Positions 1,904 to 8,916 of a stretch of DNA of 25,625 nucleotides are shown here, in pieces. A model generated the notes under the pieces. The model was not told where the DNA came from, searched no databases, and saw only the letters and a list, made by a program, of their open reading frames with translations. The position numbers and the translations under genes were made by a program. The DNA comes from a virus: positions 1 through 25,625 of IMG/VR virus record IMGVR_UViG_3300007754_000381, one strand, 5' to 3'. How positions within the stretch are numbered: position 1 is the first letter of the stretch; the number at the start of each line of letters is the position of its first letter.

Positions 1904-2727
1904 TCTAACAACTCCCATCCTTCTACCTTTTGAAATTTATGAAAAGAACCAAGTAGGTCTGTTCTTTCTTGTTTATAATCGGAGTATCCATCCTTTAGTA
2001 ATAATTTAGAATCATAAGTCATATTTTTAGCTGGAGTAGATTCATATCTAAATACTCTATACTTATTTTTTAACATAAATGTAGAAATATATCCATCACC
2101 TATAGTTTTAGTTGGTTCTTTTTGTAAATATGATGATATAATATTTTCTTTAATCATATAATATTGAAACATTGGTAAAGATTCTATAACATCTTCATCT
2201 ATTTTATTATATTTTTCACTAAAATGAAGCCCAGATTGATAGTAAGGTACTGTACCTTTTATACACCTCAAATTTGAGGGTCTGCACACTCTATCATATT
2301 TGTAAGCATTTTCTTTAAGTTCTTCTTTAGTTTGGTGATGTAAATCTGTAGAAAATCCCATTCCCCCTAAATCTTTATGTTCATCAAAATATGTTTCAAA
2401 CCTTTTAGTCCAACATTCCCCTAGATTAGGAGGTATCACATCCCCATCTGATATTATAATATAATCTAACTTGGTTTTAGATAGCACATCCTTTACTACC
2501 TCACGCATTGAGTTAAATATATAATTACCTTTCATAAAATAACATTTATCTATATTTCCTTTAGAGTAATGCTCTTTTAAATCCTTTCTCATACTGTCTG
2601 AATTCGAACTTAAATTATCAATAGCTATTATTATATTTTTATCTCTATCTATAGTTTGTAATAAACCTTCTATAACTCTATTTACCATTTCTTTATGTTT
2701 ATAAAATTGAATAAATATTCCGTTCAT
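1900..2727 (-). CDS. Family 2-like (GT-A) glycosyltransferase
   Basis: A 275-residue protein with a GT-A-like layout. An N-terminal strand MNGIFIQFYKH is followed by helix and strand, and IISDGDVIPP around residues 91-100 carries a D-G-D motif that would bind the divalent metal and nucleotide sugar. No transmembrane helix is seen, so it is probably cytoplasmic. It sits between a 53-residue small gene (ATGA overlap at its start) and the epimerase (ATGA overlap at its end), which argues that it acts in the same glycan pathway. Donor and acceptor are unknown. GT2-like assignment rests mainly on the DxD context; a non-GT2 GT-A family is possible. Confidence 0.62.
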   Translation of the reverse strand: MNGIFIQFYKHKEMVNRVIEGLLQTIDRDKNIIIAIDNLSSNSDSMRKDLKEHYSKGNIDKCYFMKGNYIFNSMREVVKDVLSKTKLDYIIISDGDVIPPNLGECWTKRFETYFDEHKDLGGMGFSTDLHHQTKEELKENAYKYDRVCRPSNLRCIKGTVPYYQSGLHFSEKYNKIDEDVIESLPMFQYYMIKENIISSYLQKEPTKTIGDGYISTFMLKNKYRVFRYESTPAKNMTYDSKLLLKDGYSDYKQERTDLLGSFHKFQKVEGWELLE

Positions 2728-2885
2728 AGTTTTATCCTCGCTATACCTTCATAAAGACTGCTTCGTTCAGAAGCAATTATTAATTCCACACCTTTTGATA
2801 GTAACCATTTATATAAAGGCTTTGATGCTTTACAAGTAGCGTCTACTTCCCAATTTAAAATGTACCAGGGTTTATCAACTTTCAT
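2724..2885 (-). CDS. Small protein of unknown function (53 aa)
   Basis: An open frame from ATG at 2885 to TGA at 2724 fills what would otherwise be the largest gap in the sugar cassette. The product begins MKVDKPWYILNWEVDATCKA and ends with GIARIKL. It is soluble, mildly basic and rich in aromatic residues near its N terminus. Its stop overlaps the next start as ATGA, and its ATG lies six bases after the upstream stop, exactly as in the flanking genes. That spacing is the main evidence that it is real. I do not recognise a family. It could be a small partner of the following glycosyltransferase or a remnant of a longer gene. Confidence 0.6.
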   Translation of the reverse strand: MKVDKPWYILNWEVDATCKASKPLYKWLLSKGVELIIASERSSLYEGIARIKL

Positions 2886-2891
2886 AACAAA

Positions 2892-4175
2892 TCATCCATT
2901 CGGGTTTAAACATATAAAAATAGCTCTATATCCACTTGAATACGCATTATATGCATAAGTAAGTTTAATTCTAGGAAACCATTTTTTTAGTGTTCCTTTA
3001 ATTTTACCTAATGATAAATTCATCTTAGGGTGATTAACTGGTGTTTCAAATACCACACAAAACTTAGTCATATCCTTAATTTTCTTCATAAATTTATCAG
3101 TTTCTTCCCCTTTTTCAAAATTAGGATATACTTGATGTAAAACTGAATTCATAATCACTATATCAAATTTATCTTTACTATTATAATTTTTAATATACTC
3201 TACTGCATCCCCATGTATAAATTCAATCTCATCAAATTTAAATATATTATTATTTATATCTACCGCAGTTTGATAATCTTCTTTTGTTTTTTCTATACCT
3301 ACCACTCTTTTAGCCCCGTGAACTACACTTTGAAAGCAAAAGAATCCTTGATTAGAACCAATGTCTAATACTGATGCATTATTTGTAAGTGTTATATATT
3401 GAAAATTCAATTTACGATATGAATCATATTCTTTACCACCACTACTATACCCTTTAAACTCATATCCATTATCAAATCTAAATCCTTCATATATACCTGC
3501 TCTATACCATTTAGGAGGACTCAGTCCCATGGCTTTATATCTTTCTAAAAATACATTATACAAATCTTCTAATTCATGAACCGATTTACCTCTAGAATTA
3601 AAACAATATCGTTCTGGAGCATGTCTAAATCTATGAAAATCAATTATTTTATCACCTATAAAATTTTTACCTGCTTTAAACCAACTTGTATCAGGTATTA
3701 ATCCATTTTCCAGTATTATTTTATTATATTTATCTAATAAAAATAAGGGTAATTGTAAATTTTTCCTAAGCATTTTTTTATCATTATCAGGCAACCAATC
3801 ATACTCGTCATAATCGTCTTTAGAATTGTCTTTACTAATATGTTCCATCAAAATCCATACATTATCATTTTCCTCATCATGCATTACATCATATATTTTT
3901 GGAAAAATTTCTAATTCTTTATTTTGAATGTACTTTAAATGATTAAACATCTCTTTTGGAGTTTCATACGCGAATTGGTCACGAGGTTTTCTATCAGGAT
4001 GTATAACTTTCACACCATACCGACCTTCGTCAATTGACAATTTAGTATATAGAGCATCCGCGCCTTTATTTATACCAGTGCTTACTTTACTACCATCTCC
4101 TATAAAAAATACTTCCAAATTATCTTTATTTTGTGATTTTATCTTAAAATCTTTTAATTTTAATTCGTTTTCCAT
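2892..4175 (-). CDS. Kinase-like domain fused to a SAM-dependent methyltransferase
   Basis: A 427-residue two-part protein. The C-terminal half is a class I SAM methyltransferase: VLDIGSNQGFF (residues 269-279) is motif I, VVGIEKT (291-297) ends strand 2 with the acidic residue that holds the ribose, HGDAVEY follows, and DIVIMNSVLHQV is motif IV. The N-terminal half resembles a protein or small-molecule kinase. It has a candidate Lys56 in YGVKVIHP, a hinge-like ILMEHI, and a late D-F in KIIDFHRF that could match the metal-binding DFG region, though the HxD catalytic loop looks degenerate. The start is the ATG at 4175, which shares one base with the preceding TGA; the TTG one codon earlier is less likely. 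A role in phosphorylating and methylating a glycan is plausible, as in methyl-phosphate capping enzymes of O-antigens, but is inference. Confidence 0.72.
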   Translation of the reverse strand: MENELKLKDFKIKSQNKDNLEVFFIGDGSKVSTGINKGADALYTKLSIDEGRYGVKVIHPDRKPRDQFAYETPKEMFNHLKYIQNKELEIFPKIYDVMHDEENDNVWILMEHISKDNSKDDYDEYDWLPDNDKKMLRKNLQLPLFLLDKYNKIILENGLIPDTSWFKAGKNFIGDKIIDFHRFRHAPERYCFNSRGKSVHELEDLYNVFLERYKAMGLSPPKWYRAGIYEGFRFDNGYEFKGYSSGGKEYDSYRKLNFQYITLTNNASVLDIGSNQGFFCFQSVVHGAKRVVGIEKTKEDYQTAVDINNNIFKFDEIEFIHGDAVEYIKNYNSKDKFDIVIMNSVLHQVYPNFEKGEETDKFMKKIKDMTKFCVVFETPVNHPKMNLSLGKIKGTLKKWFPRIKLTYAYNAYSSGYRAIFICLNPNG

Positions 4176-5068
4176 CAATCTAACTCATACATTTTTACGT
4201 TTCTTTCAGGTGTTCCCGCCCAACCTGGATATGCATATGTATCTGTAGTCAAATATTTATCTTGTTTTTCTAAACAAGGTCTAATGAACATGAATATTGC
4301 ATCTCGTGGTTCTGTTCCTGGTTTTGGACAACTTGCTCTATGATAAACATTGGGTGTAAGTATACCATAAGTTCCAGGAGGTCCTTCTAAATTTACCAAT
4401 TGCCATCCACTCTCCAATTTTTCTTTAATGACCTTTGGTGGAATCCTTGACGCGGGATATATTTGTGGTTTAATTGCATCTCTGTGAGGTGCCATTCTAT
4501 AAGAAGGTATAACTGGAACATCACCGTTTTCATCTATTAAAAACTTAAAAGCTCCACTATCCCCCGTAACCGTATTTAAATTGATAAGCATTTTCAAAAA
4601 TTCTGCAGGACAATCATCATAATGCCATTTCCATGACGAATCATACATTGAATCGTCCCACTCATTATCTGGTTGGTTATCCAAAGGTACATTTCTATAC
4701 ATATGGAAGAATTCTATCTTAGCATTACTTCCAAAAACTTCTCGCTCGACAATTGGCATTATCAATTCTAACAGTTCATAAATTTCATCTATACTTTTCC
4801 AATCATCCACTCTTATAGCATGTTTTGGTCCGACGTGACATCCACCATTATCTATGACTTTATCCATTTTTTTATGTATTTGAGATATCAAATAATCATA
4901 TCTCTCACTTTCCTCTTTTGAAAATGAATCTAATATATTTGTATCTGCTTTTAAATCATATAAAGAATCATATTTGCCCGTAGATGTTTCCCATTTTTCT
5001 CTACATAAATCGTAATGTTCTCTATATGTTTCTGGTTTATCTTGTTGTACTGAAGTATGTTGTATCAT
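4175..5068 (-). CDS. Phytanoyl-CoA dioxygenase-like Fe(II)/2-oxoglutarate oxygenase
   Basis: A 297-residue protein with the features of the PhyH-type Fe(II)/2-oxoglutarate oxygenases. WHYDD gives the H149-x-D151 metal pair, H243 in NVYHRASCP is the distal iron ligand, and an arginine shortly after (R255 or R263) could bind 2-oxoglutarate. Such enzymes hydroxylate or rearrange lipids, amino acids, sugars or small molecules, using O2 and 2-oxoglutarate and releasing CO2 and succinate. The ATG at 5068 has a good AGGAG seven bases upstream. It sits between the cytidylyltransferase and the kinase-like/methyltransferase fusion, so a sugar or glycan substituent is the likely substrate. Oxidation of a modified DNA base is a less likely alternative, because the family resemblance is to PhyH rather than TET/JBP. 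Confidence 0.72.
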   Translation of the reverse strand: MIQHTSVQQDKPETYREHYDLCREKWETSTGKYDSLYDLKADTNILDSFSKEESERYDYLISQIHKKMDKVIDNGGCHVGPKHAIRVDDWKSIDEIYELLELIMPIVEREVFGSNAKIEFFHMYRNVPLDNQPDNEWDDSMYDSSWKWHYDDCPAEFLKMLINLNTVTGDSGAFKFLIDENGDVPVIPSYRMAPHRDAIKPQIYPASRIPPKVIKEKLESGWQLVNLEGPPGTYGILTPNVYHRASCPKPGTEPRDAIFMFIRPCLEKQDKYLTTDTYAYPGWAGTPERNVKMYELD

Positions 5069-5078
5069 AATTTATCTC

Positions 5079-5771
5079 CTATTCCGTTTTAAATTTATTA
5101 TATAAAACTTCTCCGACTTCAAATTGCCAAGGATAATCAATATCAAAAACCTCTAACTCATCCATTTCAAATAAATCTGGATTTCCTTTGGTGAATGGTG
5201 CATCACCCATCCAAATTTCATCTTTAATAGTATCCATTCTTGATGCATAAAGACAATGTGCCGCCTCATAAGTGGTATCTACCATTTTAGTATTCATAAT
5301 AGTAAGTCCTTTAGGCCATTTTGTAATCATATCACCATTTTGATTCCAATAATATTGTTTCTTTCCTATAACTCCAAACAACCCATCTGAATCTGAATTA
5401 ATATACTTCTCAACAAACCCATCAATAGTTTCAGTTTTTAACAATGGTGTACATGCACTAATTAAAACAACATATTTATAAGGTAGTTGATCATGCCACT
5501 CATATATATTTGTCAATGAATTTTCACCATTTGCTGATTTCTCTGACCGATGATAGATATTCACACCATACTTTTCACATAAATCTACCAATTCCTTCTC
5601 ATATACTGAACAATAAAAATTCTCTTTTGGAATAATTTTAGAATCCAATACTTTCTGTATTCCTAAATCCATCAATGTAGTATCTGAAAATGGTTCTATC
5701 ATTTTACGAGGTACTCTCGTTGAATTTAATCTTGCTTGTATGATGAAACATACATCATTCATTGATTTCAT
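5079..5771 (-). CDS. CMP-nonulosonate cytidylyltransferase (NeuA/SpsF-type)
   Basis: A 230-residue nucleotidyltransferase of the CTP_transf_3 type, which activates a nonulosonic acid with CTP to give the CMP-sugar and pyrophosphate. QARLNSTRVPRKM at residues 12-24 is the nucleotide-binding loop (SpsF- and NeuA-like). SACTPLL near 105-111 is the usual core strand. VFDIDYPWQF near 208-217 holds the paired aspartates D210 and D212 that bind metal in NeuA. The length equals the family's single-domain form. It is two genes downstream of the NeuB-like synthase, the usual pairing for sialic or legionaminic acid activation. SpsF of spore-coat polysaccharide loci is an alternative name for the same group; the true sugar is not determined. 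Confidence 0.83.
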   Translation of the reverse strand: MKSMNDVCFIIQARLNSTRVPRKMIEPFSDTTLMDLGIQKVLDSKIIPKENFYCSVYEKELVDLCEKYGVNIYHRSEKSANGENSLTNIYEWHDQLPYKYVVLISACTPLLKTETIDGFVEKYINSDSDGLFGVIGKKQYYWNQNGDMITKWPKGLTIMNTKMVDTTYEAAHCLYASRMDTIKDEIWMGDAPFTKGNPDLFEMDELEVFDIDYPWQFEVGEVLYNKFKTE

Positions 5772-5773
5772 AA

Positions 5774-6619
5774 CTATATCAAATCTTTAATTTCTTCTGT
5801 TAATGGAAAATATTTTTTACTCCAAGTAGAACTAAAATTGTATTCTGAATTTTCTCCCAAATTGTAAAGTCTAGTATCATAATTTAATTCATTTAAAATA
5901 TAATTCCATAATTCTTCAAATTGTCCATAATAAATATCATAAGCGTTATGTTCGTTGACTTGATGTGGTAAATTAACCTTACCATCTTCAAAAGAATGTT
6001 CTATATTATTTTTATTTAAAGTTTTAGTTTTAACAGAAACTCCTGGGCATCCATCCATGCCGACTAAATAAATTTCTTTAGGTTTCATCTCTAATGCGAA
6101 CATTAACAATCTAGGAACACCGCCTAATTTACCATATATTCTAGTATTAAAACAACTAATTTTAGGATAATTTTCATATAATAATCTTAAATAAGTTTTT
6201 TCATTTTCCCATCTAGAATGTAATTCAAACATCAGTATTGGATTAAACTCATTTACATAATTTAAAAAGTCATCACTTTGATAATCCACCTCACCACCAA
6301 TAACTGCAATATCTACTTTCCTGTTCTTCAAATCTGAATTTAAATAAAAATGATTTAAAGAAAATATATAATCATATTCTAAATTATACCACTTAACTTC
6401 ATTTGTAGTAGGTCCAGCTCCAACAATTAATATTTTACTATCTTCAAATTTATCAAATTCATCCAAATGATTATATACTATATCAGAACTTTCCTTTAGA
6501 TTATTTGTAAATGGAAATAAACTTTTTAATTGTCCCGCAGAATGAGATTTGAACGGTGGTATATGTGAATAATAAACCTGCATATCTACATTACCATGAT
6601 CTTGATCAAAAAGACTCAT
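5774..6619 (-). CDS. Sialyltransferase-like protein (GT42/DUF115-like)
   Basis: A 281-residue protein whose motif order matches what I remember of the bacterial GT42 sialyltransferases (Cst-I/Cst-II). VGAGPTTNE at 66-74 corresponds to their AGNGPSLKE, SLNHFY at 87-92 to their CNQFY, and the block ending KEIYLVGMDG (about 181-190) to their KEIYLSGID. GT42 enzymes move sialic acid from CMP-sialic acid to galactose-like acceptors. The gene lies directly between the synthase (TAG then ATG, no spacing) and the cytidylyltransferase, the expected place for the transferase using their product. The start has GAGGGGATAG immediately upstream. The fold could instead be the related MptE/DUF115 group, and the catalytic histidine was not aligned with certainty. 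Confidence 0.6.
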   Translation of the reverse strand: MSLFDQDHGNVDMQVYYSHIPPFKSHSAGQLKSLFPFTNNLKESSDIVYNHLDEFDKFEDSKILIVGAGPTTNEVKWYNLEYDYIFSLNHFYLNSDLKNRKVDIAVIGGEVDYQSDDFLNYVNEFNPILMFELHSRWENEKTYLRLLYENYPKISCFNTRIYGKLGGVPRLLMFALEMKPKEIYLVGMDGCPGVSVKTKTLNKNNIEHSFEDGKVNLPHQVNEHNAYDIYYGQFEELWNYILNELNYDTRLYNLGENSEYNFSSTWSKKYFPLTEEIKDLI

Positions 6620-7474
6620 CTATCCCCTCAAATGTTTTCGTACTTTTTTCTCTGATTCAGTAACGTGAATACTACCATCTCCGCGAGCTTGTTCCAATTC
6701 TCTAATTCCACTCATTAACTTAAATAGTCCTTGTGGTTCAACCGATGATAACTGGTCTGACCCCCACATAGACCTATCAAGTGTTATATGTCTTTCAATA
6801 ACTGTTGCCCCTAAATAAACTGCCGCTACTGAAGTTCCCAATCTAAATTCATGACCACTATACCCAACTTCACAATTATATCTTTCTTTAAGTGTTGTTA
6901 TCGCACTTAAATTTAATTCTTCTATCGGTGCAGGATAAGTAGAATTACAATGTAATAAAACTATATCTCCCGCTACCTCATAATAAGGTTCTATAGTAAC
7001 CTTTGATTTAAGTAAAGAAACTGCATGATCTATTTCTTCCTCTGTACTCATTCCTGTACTTAAAATAACTTTTTTATCAGTATCCCTTGATGCTATAAGT
7101 AATTCATCATTAGTTAACATAGCTGATGGTATCTTTATATAAGGAATATCATACTGATTAAGAAATTCTAAACTATCCAAATCCCAGGGTGAAGCCGACC
7201 AATCAATATTTCGTTCTTTACAATATCTGTCTATCTCATCATATTCTTCTTTACCAAACTCTACTTTATATTTGTATTCCAAATAAGTCATTTTACCCCA
7301 CGGCGTTTTTCTTACTTTAGATTTCTCACCTTCAGGAACACAAACATCTGGATTTCTCTTTTGAAATTTAACTGAATCACATCCAGCCGCTGAAGCAATA
7401 TCTATCAGTCTTTTAGCTATATTCAAATCACCATTATGATTTATTCCTATTTCTGCTATGAAATATGTTTTCAT
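6620..7474 (-). CDS. Nonulosonic acid synthase (NeuB/SpsE-type), SAF domain absent
   Basis: A 284-residue synthase that would condense phosphoenolpyruvate with an N-acetylmannosamine-like or 6-deoxy sugar to a nine-carbon acidic sugar. The TIM barrel is complete: EIGINHNG (8-15), VKFQ (35-38), KIPS (114-117), LSTGM (138-142), HCNSTYPA (175-182), GYSGH (204-208) and ERHITLDR (227-234). The Mn-binding pair H208 and H229 has the same 21-residue spacing as in meningococcal NeuB. The protein stops at SEKKVRKHLRG, where typical members continue into a roughly 60-residue SAF (antifreeze-like) domain, so that domain is missing here. In dimeric NeuB the SAF domain helps cover the partner's active site. 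The start overlaps the preceding stop as ATGA. NeuB, LegI, PseI and SpsE cannot be separated from these motifs. Confidence 0.88.
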   Translation of the reverse strand: MKTYFIAEIGINHNGDLNIAKRLIDIASAAGCDSVKFQKRNPDVCVPEGEKSKVRKTPWGKMTYLEYKYKVEFGKEEYDEIDRYCKERNIDWSASPWDLDSLEFLNQYDIPYIKIPSAMLTNDELLIASRDTDKKVILSTGMSTEEEIDHAVSLLKSKVTIEPYYEVAGDIVLLHCNSTYPAPIEELNLSAITTLKERYNCEVGYSGHEFRLGTSVAAVYLGATVIERHITLDRSMWGSDQLSSVEPQGLFKLMSGIRELEQARGDGSIHVTESEKKVRKHLRG

Positions 7475-8211
7475 TTCATCAACCCTTCATATAATTCATT
7501 TTGTTTTACTTGTTTATCAATTGTCTTAGGATGATATAACGACAATTCTTCGTGTGGTGGTAGATGTGAATATGTTTTACAACCAGTTATTCTTTCGTGC
7601 ACTTTACCCTGCCAATATACATCTTCACTATTTCTAAATACTCGTGCTTGATAGTCGGGAGCATTAATTATTGGAACTTTATATTTTACGATGTTTTCAT
7701 CAACAATTAAGTCCATTTTTTTCAAAAGTTTATATTCTTCACTTTCAGTATCCATAATTTTTTCATTATAAAGTTCAAATGGTGCAGTTACTTTCCAACC
7801 CCATTGTTTTATATGTTGTTCTGTAATACCATCAACGGTGTTAATTCTTGGTAAATATATTAAATCGACATCGTTCATCTCAATTATTTGTGGTAATTGT
7901 TCCATCAATGTCTCGTGGGGCAACTCGTCTGCATCTAGATGCACAATATAGTCTCCCGAACACATTGATTTTGTATAATTTTTTAGGTCTGAAAAATTAC
8001 CATCAAATTTATATGGATGCCAACTAAATTCTCCATTAACTGAATGACTTCTTAGATACTCTTCAACACCTTTAGAACCATTATTAGAATCATAAGTGAT
8101 TACTATTTCGTCTTCTGTTCTTTTATTATCTAATAGAAATGTAACTAATTTTTGTATCTCTATATGTTCGCTGCAAACTGTTATAGCATATGACAAATTT
8201 ATTTTTTTCAT
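7471..8211 (-). CDS. Family 2 glycosyltransferase
   Basis: A 246-residue GT-A glycosyltransferase. LSYAITVCSEH at the N terminus is the usual first strand of GT2 enzymes. FDGNFSDLKN (69-78) and HLDADELPHE (91-100, with D93-A94-D95 as the metal-binding DxD) follow. WQGKVHERI near the C-terminal third resembles the WaaE/KdtX group, which adds glucose to a lipopolysaccharide core. No membrane helix is seen. Its start shares ATGA with the HNH endonuclease stop and its stop shares ATGA with the NeuB start, so it opens the sugar cassette. It probably transfers a hexose to the glycan that also receives the nonulosonic acid; acceptor and donor are inferred only from context. Confidence 0.78.
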   Translation of the reverse strand: MKKINLSYAITVCSEHIEIQKLVTFLLDNKRTEDEIVITYDSNNGSKGVEEYLRSHSVNGEFSWHPYKFDGNFSDLKNYTKSMCSGDYIVHLDADELPHETLMEQLPQIIEMNDVDLIYLPRINTVDGITEQHIKQWGWKVTAPFELYNEKIMDTESEEYKLLKKMDLIVDENIVKYKVPIINAPDYQARVFRNSEDVYWQGKVHERITGCKTYSHLPPHEELSLYHPKTIDKQVKQNELYEGLMK

Positions 8212-8795
8212 TGCTTACTCAAGTTCTCTTCCCAAGTAATAAATTGTAAGTTTTTTATATTACCAATTACTTCTGGTGGTATTTTATTCTCAAATCCACT
8301 ACTAATTGAAATAATATGGTCTAATTGATATCCACCAGTGATCCCACATAGTGTTCTTGGGTTGTCATAATTTTCTAATGTATGAATTGGTTGGTTTTCT
8401 GTAATTTGTCTTACCATAACATAATATCTTTTTTTATCTTCTTTCCAAGTACTCATATATTCATCATAACTTATACCCAATTTCTTCAAACGGGATCTTA
8501 CACCTGGATTATCTTTACCATATAACTTTGGCTGAACATTCATTTTACCTTTGTTCCACGGTTCTAGTTTACCTTCCAAATATAACTTTTTCTTTGTAGC
8601 ACTTTGTTTTGGATTTTTCTTCCCTCTCCAATGTCCCATATCAACATTCTTCATTGCTTTATACCACGCTTCACCAGTCAATCCTCTATTATCTCTACCT
8701 TTATCTGAACATTTCCTTGAACAAAACTTTCTGTGATTACATTTATAATCTTCAAATTCAACATCACAATTAAGACACTTTATTTTTATCTTCAT
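8208..8795 (-). CDS. HNH homing-type endonuclease with NUMOD3-like repeats
   Basis: A 195-residue free-standing homing-type endonuclease. CLNC (C7, C10) and FCSRKC (C25, C29) form a small zinc-finger-like element at the N terminus. HWRGKKNP and WNKGKMN are NUMOD3-type DNA-binding repeats. The HNH core reads LDHIISISSGF near 158-168 with D159-H160, then IPPEVIGNIKNLQF with N182, and N191 near the end. The start is the ATG at 8795, with GGAG seven bases upstream and directly before the zinc motif. An upstream in-frame ATG at 8843 would add 16 unrelated residues and overlaps the small basic gene. Such genes spread by cutting cognate alleles. The ATGA overlap with the next glycosyltransferase means it is inserted without breaking coupling. 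Confidence 0.87.
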   Translation of the reverse strand: MKIKIKCLNCDVEFEDYKCNHRKFCSRKCSDKGRDNRGLTGEAWYKAMKNVDMGHWRGKKNPKQSATKKKLYLEGKLEPWNKGKMNVQPKLYGKDNPGVRSRLKKLGISYDEYMSTWKEDKKRYYVMVRQITENQPIHTLENYDNPRTLCGITGGYQLDHIISISSGFENKIPPEVIGNIKNLQFITWEENLSKQ

Positions 8796-8916
8796 AATAT
8801 TTCTCCATACGGGCGGCTCTAAGTCGTTCCTTATTCTTTTCATAATGTTTTTTCTTAGCTATAAGGTTTGCGGCTCTTTTGGCTTCTATTGTTAGATGAA
8901 TTTTCTTTCTTCCCAT
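8770..8916 (-). CDS. Tiny basic Lys/Arg/Tyr-rich protein (48 aa)
   Basis: An open frame from ATG at 8916 to TAA at 8770, 48 codons, overlapping the HNH gene by 26 bases in another frame. The product begins MGRKKIHLTIEAKRAANLIA and continues with HYEKNKERLR and MEKYYEDKNK, so it is a short, highly charged helical peptide. The segment pattern Y-x-K-N-K-E...KYYExK is shared with the tiny gene at 24579-24719. Such sequences are common just before HNH or similar DNA-binding domains in phages and large viruses, so this may be a split-off DNA-binding arm of the endonuclease. No clear ribosome binding site precedes it. Function unknown; nucleic-acid binding is inference from charge. Confidence 0.5.
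   Translation of the reverse strand: MGRKKIHLTIEAKRAANLIAKKKHYEKNKERLRAARMEKYYEDKNKVS

Follow-up and report, generated by a model that had tools for sequence, protein, structure and literature searches.

A predicted kinase-type domain fused to a methyltransferase in a phage sugar locus, compared with the methyl-phosphate terminators of bacterial O-antigens

Beyond the phage candidates considered here, methyl-phosphate ends are, to our knowledge, known only from bacterial surface polysaccharides. WbdD of Escherichia coli O9a and Klebsiella pneumoniae O3, a methyl-phosphate chain terminator, combines a kinase and a class I methyltransferase in one protein encoded in a glycan locus, and the available text of its structural report gives the layout as methyltransferase, kinase and coiled coil (PMC3482155). 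A second, differently built maker of methyl-phosphate ends is the N-terminal methyltransferase-kinase of K. pneumoniae O7 ORF6, whose kinase part, according to the available text of its report, was unannotated until it was modelled (PMC11231755).

The DNA analysed here (the window) is a complete IMG/VR virus record of 25,625 bases. Its DNA polymerase is closest to that of Microcystis phage Mel-JY01 (44%) and next to those of cyanophages (~30%), similarities from which we infer a T4-like phage, perhaps of cyanobacteria. A gene with the WbdD-type combination of a predicted kinase fold and a class I methyltransferase lies on the minus strand within a glycan locus. Its open reading frame extends over positions 2892–4178 when counted from a TTG codon, and the plus strand is stop-rich there. 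The preferred start is an ATG at 4175 whose A is also the last letter of the TGA stop codon of the upstream gene at 4175–5068 (TGATG), and the span of 2892–4175 proposed, with no strand named, in an earlier sequence-only reading of the window is therefore exact, being an ATG-to-stop frame of 427 aa (428 aa from the TTG at 4178, which is residue 1 in the numbering used throughout). The open reading frame, the start/stop overlap and seven homologues confirm that the gene is real. Relative to WbdD the order of the domains is reversed, with the kinase fold first (residues 1–228, positions 3495–4178, minus strand, from the predicted model and its kinase structure matches) and the methyltransferase extending to the C-terminus (residues 229–428, positions 2895–3494, minus strand), and the coiled-coil ruler of WbdD is missing. 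ORF6, whose kinase part likewise came to light by modelling, also differs, having by its description in the available text the methyltransferase first, an AmiN-like kinase, a coiled coil and glycosyltransferase modules (PMC11231755).

Relatives of the fusion protein were found in other viral contigs. No match to it was obtained by tblastn in 50,697 public phage records, nor any relatives in those records with a second family member (L059) as query, in a single-protein scan of viral contigs or in two scans of bacterial genomes. Among 93 loci examined in all, some from the same contigs and 80 of them gathered with NeuB as bait, full-length homologues were present in seven loci besides the window's own, with an overall identity to the window protein of 34–39%. 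Three later viral scans with different peptide patterns from the fusion protein returned the same seven contigs, and one of the scans also matched L101 and L102 in the methyltransferase part only; therefore all seven, found in this way without the NeuB bait, still have NeuB and a CMP-sugar synthetase nearby. Pairwise identity of the N-terminal halves across the eight members ranges from 27 to 59%, and the N-terminal half is more divergent than the C-terminal half in 28 of 28 pairs. For dS of family pairs the program returned −1, which was taken as saturation.

The C-terminal half is confirmed as a class I SAM methyltransferase. Pfam Methyltransf_31 matches residues 265–373 (E 1.5e-10), fold matches extend from about residue 190 to 428, and SAM motif I, ASVLDIGSNQGFFCFQ, occupies residues 268–283 (positions 3330–3377, minus strand; Pfam and family alignment), in agreement with the SAM-binding half recognised in the sequence-only reading. 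The top solved folds were CmoB (Z 17.3), tied with WbdD (Z 16.5, 199 aligned, 21% identity). Comparison of the family profile of this half with WbdD of E. coli HS by hhalign gave E 3.6e-10 over 206 columns at 20% identity, and the matches to UbiG (79 columns, 9.8e-8) and CmoB (40 columns, 6.8e-6) were shorter and weaker; against a small profile of WbdD and mycobacteriophage sequences the match was limited to the central 91 columns (E 2.5e-10). The rank of CmoB, together with PHROG matches of which some are named tRNA methyltransferase, would be expected of an enzyme that methylates tRNA or another nucleic acid, carries an unusual N-terminal domain and has no connection with the sugar locus. 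Such an enzyme is very improbable here, since the fold match lies in the common Rossmann half, the sequence similarity to CmoB is confined to the columns given, the start codon of the gene overlaps the stop codon of the locus gene before it, and the same oxygenase-like gene adjoins it in seven of eight loci.

Methylation of phosphate by WbdD is lost in the variants H132A, H133A, R203A and Y16F, as described in the available text (PMC3482155). In joint alignments made in three MAFFT modes, the window family carries His, Gln and Arg at the positions of H132, H133 and R203 (8/8 each), and the E160 equivalent is also kept in all eight. In the window these residues are H348-Q349 (positions 3132–3137, minus strand), invariant in the family and aligned with WbdD H132-H133, and R418 (positions 2925–2927, minus strand), located in the β6-β7 hairpin and equally invariant, although less stable in single-sequence alignments. 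The counterpart of Y16 pairs with Y230 in one MAFFT mode only, and the equivalents of Y16, R31 and R36 move with the alignment method. When sequences were aligned one at a time, His and Gln held in 32 of 32 trials, the Arg was method-dependent and some controls also showed Arg. The trio of His, Glu and Arg at the H132, E160 and R203 columns was found together in 5, 5, 7 and 6 of the eight members in four single-sequence runs, and in none of 11 control methyltransferases in any of the four. The controls were eight methyltransferases of E. coli MG1655 and three from the loci (cmoM, cut at the end of its stretch, was excluded), chosen because the 11 non-family matches from a family-profile search of the loci hardly covered the C-terminal part. 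A methyltransferase acting on phosphate is thus suggested rather than settled by these alignments.

Fold searches with the full-length model listed methyltransferases only, and for this reason the N-terminal half was modelled alone. The AlphaFold2 model, built from eight sequences (m863c06639e5d; pLDDT 79.5, pTM 0.73), follows the order of elements in a kinase, with five N-lobe strands that include K57 on β3, an αC helix at residues 74–87 and a hinge strand at 106–112, followed by two helices, β6, a short β7/8 hairpin and then D180-F-H. Foldseek against the PDB placed kinases first (best E 4.6e-5), WbdD chains ranking 33rd and 49th; the matches listed were kinases, one of them (8otz_2) titled merely as a microtubule complex. 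VIA-align likewise listed kinases, the best at Z 9.9 with 145 residues aligned at an rmsd of 4.5, and Z 8 was reached by 41 of 998 chains. These Z values lie slightly above those of models without a clear match, and the agreement on one fold is the specific element. Most structure matches end near the DFG region, which points to a short C-lobe. The model therefore supports a divergent kinase-type fold; the sequence-only reading had claimed such a fold and named a non-kinase model as its refutation, and the model that was run matched kinases including WbdD. At the level of sequence, no match of the N-terminal half to any kinase was detected in Pfam, PDB profiles or WbdD: the best PDB profile was an unrelated cytokine (E 0.65), Pfam gave nothing for the window copy and weak unrelated matches for other members, and hhalign of the family N-terminal half with the WbdD kinase returned a probability of 0.1% over 22 columns.

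The WbdD-like logic first proposed for this protein consequently stands in part. The methyltransferase half is related and some of its residues are kept, whereas the kinase halves share no detectable sequence kinship and their place in the protein is reversed. Because of that reversal, the missing coiled-coil ruler and the retention of only some phosphate-methylation residues, the window protein is not a member of the WbdD methyl-phosphate terminators.

The short motifs noticed beforehand in the N-terminal half are all present, the VxK strand being YGVKVI with K57 (positions 4008–4010, minus strand; strand 54–59 in the models), the hinge-like ILMEHI residues 109–114 and the late DF motif IIDFH with D180. 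Residues K57, N172, D180, F181 and H182 are invariant in all eight members, so that the β3 lysine, the catalytic-loop asparagine and the DFG-type aspartate are each kept 8/8, and since this holds despite the low identity of the N-terminal halves the motifs are more than chance. N172 and D180 fit WbdD N356 and D369. The catalytic-loop region LIPDTSWFKAGKNFIGDKIIDFHRF (residues 160–184, positions 3627–3701, minus strand; family alignment) contains D163, W166, K168, N172 and D180. An acid directly follows β6 in 8/8, being Asp163 in the window protein but Glu in all seven homologues, at the place of WbdD D351, but on a longer loop; W166 and K168 are invariant, and 8–13 residues separate the acid from the Asn in place of the canonical 5. 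The K-x-x-N spacing of most members puts an invariant Trp where the Asp would be expected. An acid occupies the αC position in seven of eight members and a GxGxxG-like glycine loop is found in five, the window copy not among them. The loop had been judged weak beforehand, and a canonical HRD motif is indeed missing. In WbdD itself, D351E abolishes activity, according to the available text (PMC3482155).

These features bear on whether the N-terminal domain is an enzyme. It may serve, as a pseudokinase or an ATP-dependent scaffold, to recognise a glycan or nucleotide-sugar, with the methyltransferase O-methylating a sugar hydroxyl directly. The missing HRD aspartate, the longer loop and the lack of sequence kinship to kinases would fit such a role, as would the faster divergence of the N-terminal half in every family pair, which is expected of a recognition domain, the Gln in place of WbdD H133 and the TylF-family O-methyltransferase gene in the L059 locus. 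Against it stand the invariant equivalents of the ATP/Mg ligands, K57, N172 and D180, and the acid that directly follows β6 in every member. A pseudokinase is accordingly a real possibility, yet we favour, tentatively and with less than even confidence, a bifunctional kinase and phosphate-methyltransferase that works in the manner of WbdD. In this bifunctional protein the minimal, divergent kinase fold would bind ATP-Mg via K57, N172 and D180, with Asp163 (Glu in homologues) on the lengthened loop replacing the HRD aspartate, and would phosphorylate a hydroxyl of a terminal or near-terminal sugar in a glycan of nonulosonate type made by the phage. The C-terminal domain would then move a methyl group from SAM to that sugar phosphate, with H348, Q349 and R418 around the acceptor, to yield a methyl-phosphate-modified sugar by two-step glycan tailoring in a T4-like phage. 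The fusion protein probably decorates a glycan, and perhaps caps it with methyl phosphate as in O-antigens. We infer for it ATP binding, kinase activity, a phosphate as methyl acceptor and a glycan substrate, and the glycan itself would be placed on virion proteins or on the host surface. If a kinase fold without the canonical HRD works in this way, it would be an added solution to phosphotransfer.

The phage sugar-locus setting assigned in the sequence-only reading is borne out by the neighbouring genes, all on the minus strand. Upstream lie the 2OG-Fe(II)-oxygenase-like gene of cluster C4 (4175–5068; no Pfam hit in the window copy, with the L078 member matching 2OG-FeII_Oxy_3 at E 4.6e-4, below cut-off), a CMP-sugar synthetase-like gene (CTP_transf_3, 5079–5771; Pfam E 6.7e-17), an MptE-like (PF01973) protein and possible transferase (5774–6619; Pfam E 9e-5, below cut-off), a NeuB-family nonulosonate synthase (6620–7474; Pfam E 4.3e-77) and a family 2 glycosyltransferase (7471–8211; Pfam E 8.3e-6). 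On the other side are a weak family 2 glycosyltransferase-like gene (1900–2727; Pfam E 0.056, below cut-off) and an NAD-dependent sugar epimerase/dehydratase (920–1918; Pfam E 4.8e-45). NeuB, CMP-synthetase and oxygenase-like genes are present in all eight family loci, and in every locus except L029 the oxygenase-like gene adjoins the fusion gene (≤12 bases or overlap) in either order. No ABC exporter gene was seen among the ten window proteins scanned with Pfam. A possible HNH-type endonuclease gene (8208–8843; PHROG matches) also lies within the sugar cluster.

The NeuB and CMP-synthetase genes could also be cited for a kinase whose acceptor is a small precursor (of a nonulosonate, or an amino acid or alcohol), with the methyltransferase methylating the precursor elsewhere before transfer and no methyl-phosphate being formed. 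A fusion of a nucleotidyltransferase with an APH-type kinase (cluster C9), an arrangement that suits activation of small alcohols, lies near the fusion gene in five of eight loci (L078:16153–17739) and speaks for the same reading. The placement of R418 and H348 at phosphate-contacting positions of WbdD argues against it, and we regard it as improbable. Of the three loci scanned, L078 shows the C9 domains clearly, whereas in L041 and L091 they fall under the Pfam cut-offs; they hint at further phosphorylated substituents in the family loci. Also present in these and similar loci are a second NeuB of ~490 aa fused to a cupin domain in homologous loci (L078:12232–13695 and relatives; domain make-up checked in L078 only), which the window does not have, and two sulfotransferase genes in a similar phage locus (L049:12685–14354).

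In a sister phage (L014) a 2.2-kb stretch corresponding to window positions 1905–4136 is missing, as seen by blastn and gene order, and with it nearly all of the fusion gene and most of the gene at 1900–2727. The L014 matches flanking this gap abut within ~13 bases. Nucleotide identity is 92% over 129–1904 and about 75–87% elsewhere. The oxygenase-like and MptE-like genes have diverged (49–51%), whereas NeuB and the epimerase have stayed at 90%. Given so clean an absence, the fusion gene and the gene at 1900–2727 are variable cargo in the glycan locus.

A separate phage arrangement came to light in four mycobacteriophage records that were hit by tblastn with the L078 homologue as query. In these a small kinase (HRD-type motif, DWE) directly precedes a methyltransferase gene, with glycosyltransferase genes around, as in Minerva 15/16, Tweety 102/103 and Lucky2013 16/17 (L120:4495–5516, L119:4480–5525 and L103:5667–7383 are coordinates of such pairs); in Minerva and Lucky2013 the cluster comes after the major capsid gene. 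Searches with the kinase and with the methyltransferase each found 44 records, and the 40 kinase records among the matches listed all fall within the 44 methyltransferase records, which are closely related and therefore not 44 independent events. The pair resembles the window protein in setting a phage kinase beside a methyltransferase near glycosyltransferases, but differs in its separate genes, its canonical HRD-x-HPGN kinase and the full WbdD residue set of its methyltransferase. The methyltransferases match WbdD at E 3.7e-11 over 163 columns and keep Y16, R31, R36, H132, H133, E160 and R203 in 3/3 sequences (a single residue of one sequence fell into a gap in one of the two runs that aligned sequences singly). 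Their partner kinases match that of WbdD at E 3.2e-7; no relation was detected between these kinases and the N-terminal half of the window family.

Capsid glycosylation is reported in cluster F phages in the available text of PMC11256854. By its sequence the mycobacteriophage pair is a closer candidate for methyl-phosphate formation than the window family, on virion glycans, and a phage version of this chemistry, called unusual in the sequence-only reading, is perhaps less so because mycobacteriophages carry this separate, more WbdD-like pair. A literature search by titles and the starts of abstracts found no phage WbdD-type or methyl-phosphate glycan enzyme; a published mycobacteriophage glycan structure may exist. 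A broader and rather doubtful proposal is that phages make methyl-phosphate glycans with their own enzymes in two separately built forms, one fused and kinase-first in nonulosonate loci and the other the split, WbdD-like mycobacteriophage pair, that the cap protects or masks virion glycans, and that the fused form is a new kinase family with a Glu/Asp acid on a remodelled loop. If phages do make methyl-phosphate ends, the charged, blocked end of the glycan on virions could alter antibody recognition, adsorption and persistence, and, through the mycobacteriophage pair, the idea could be put to the test with laboratory phages of M. smegmatis. In Lucky2013 the methyltransferase occupies the N-terminal end of a larger gene product annotated as a glycosyltransferase (gene 17, L103:6157–7383), and related records annotate its equivalent as a methyltransferase.
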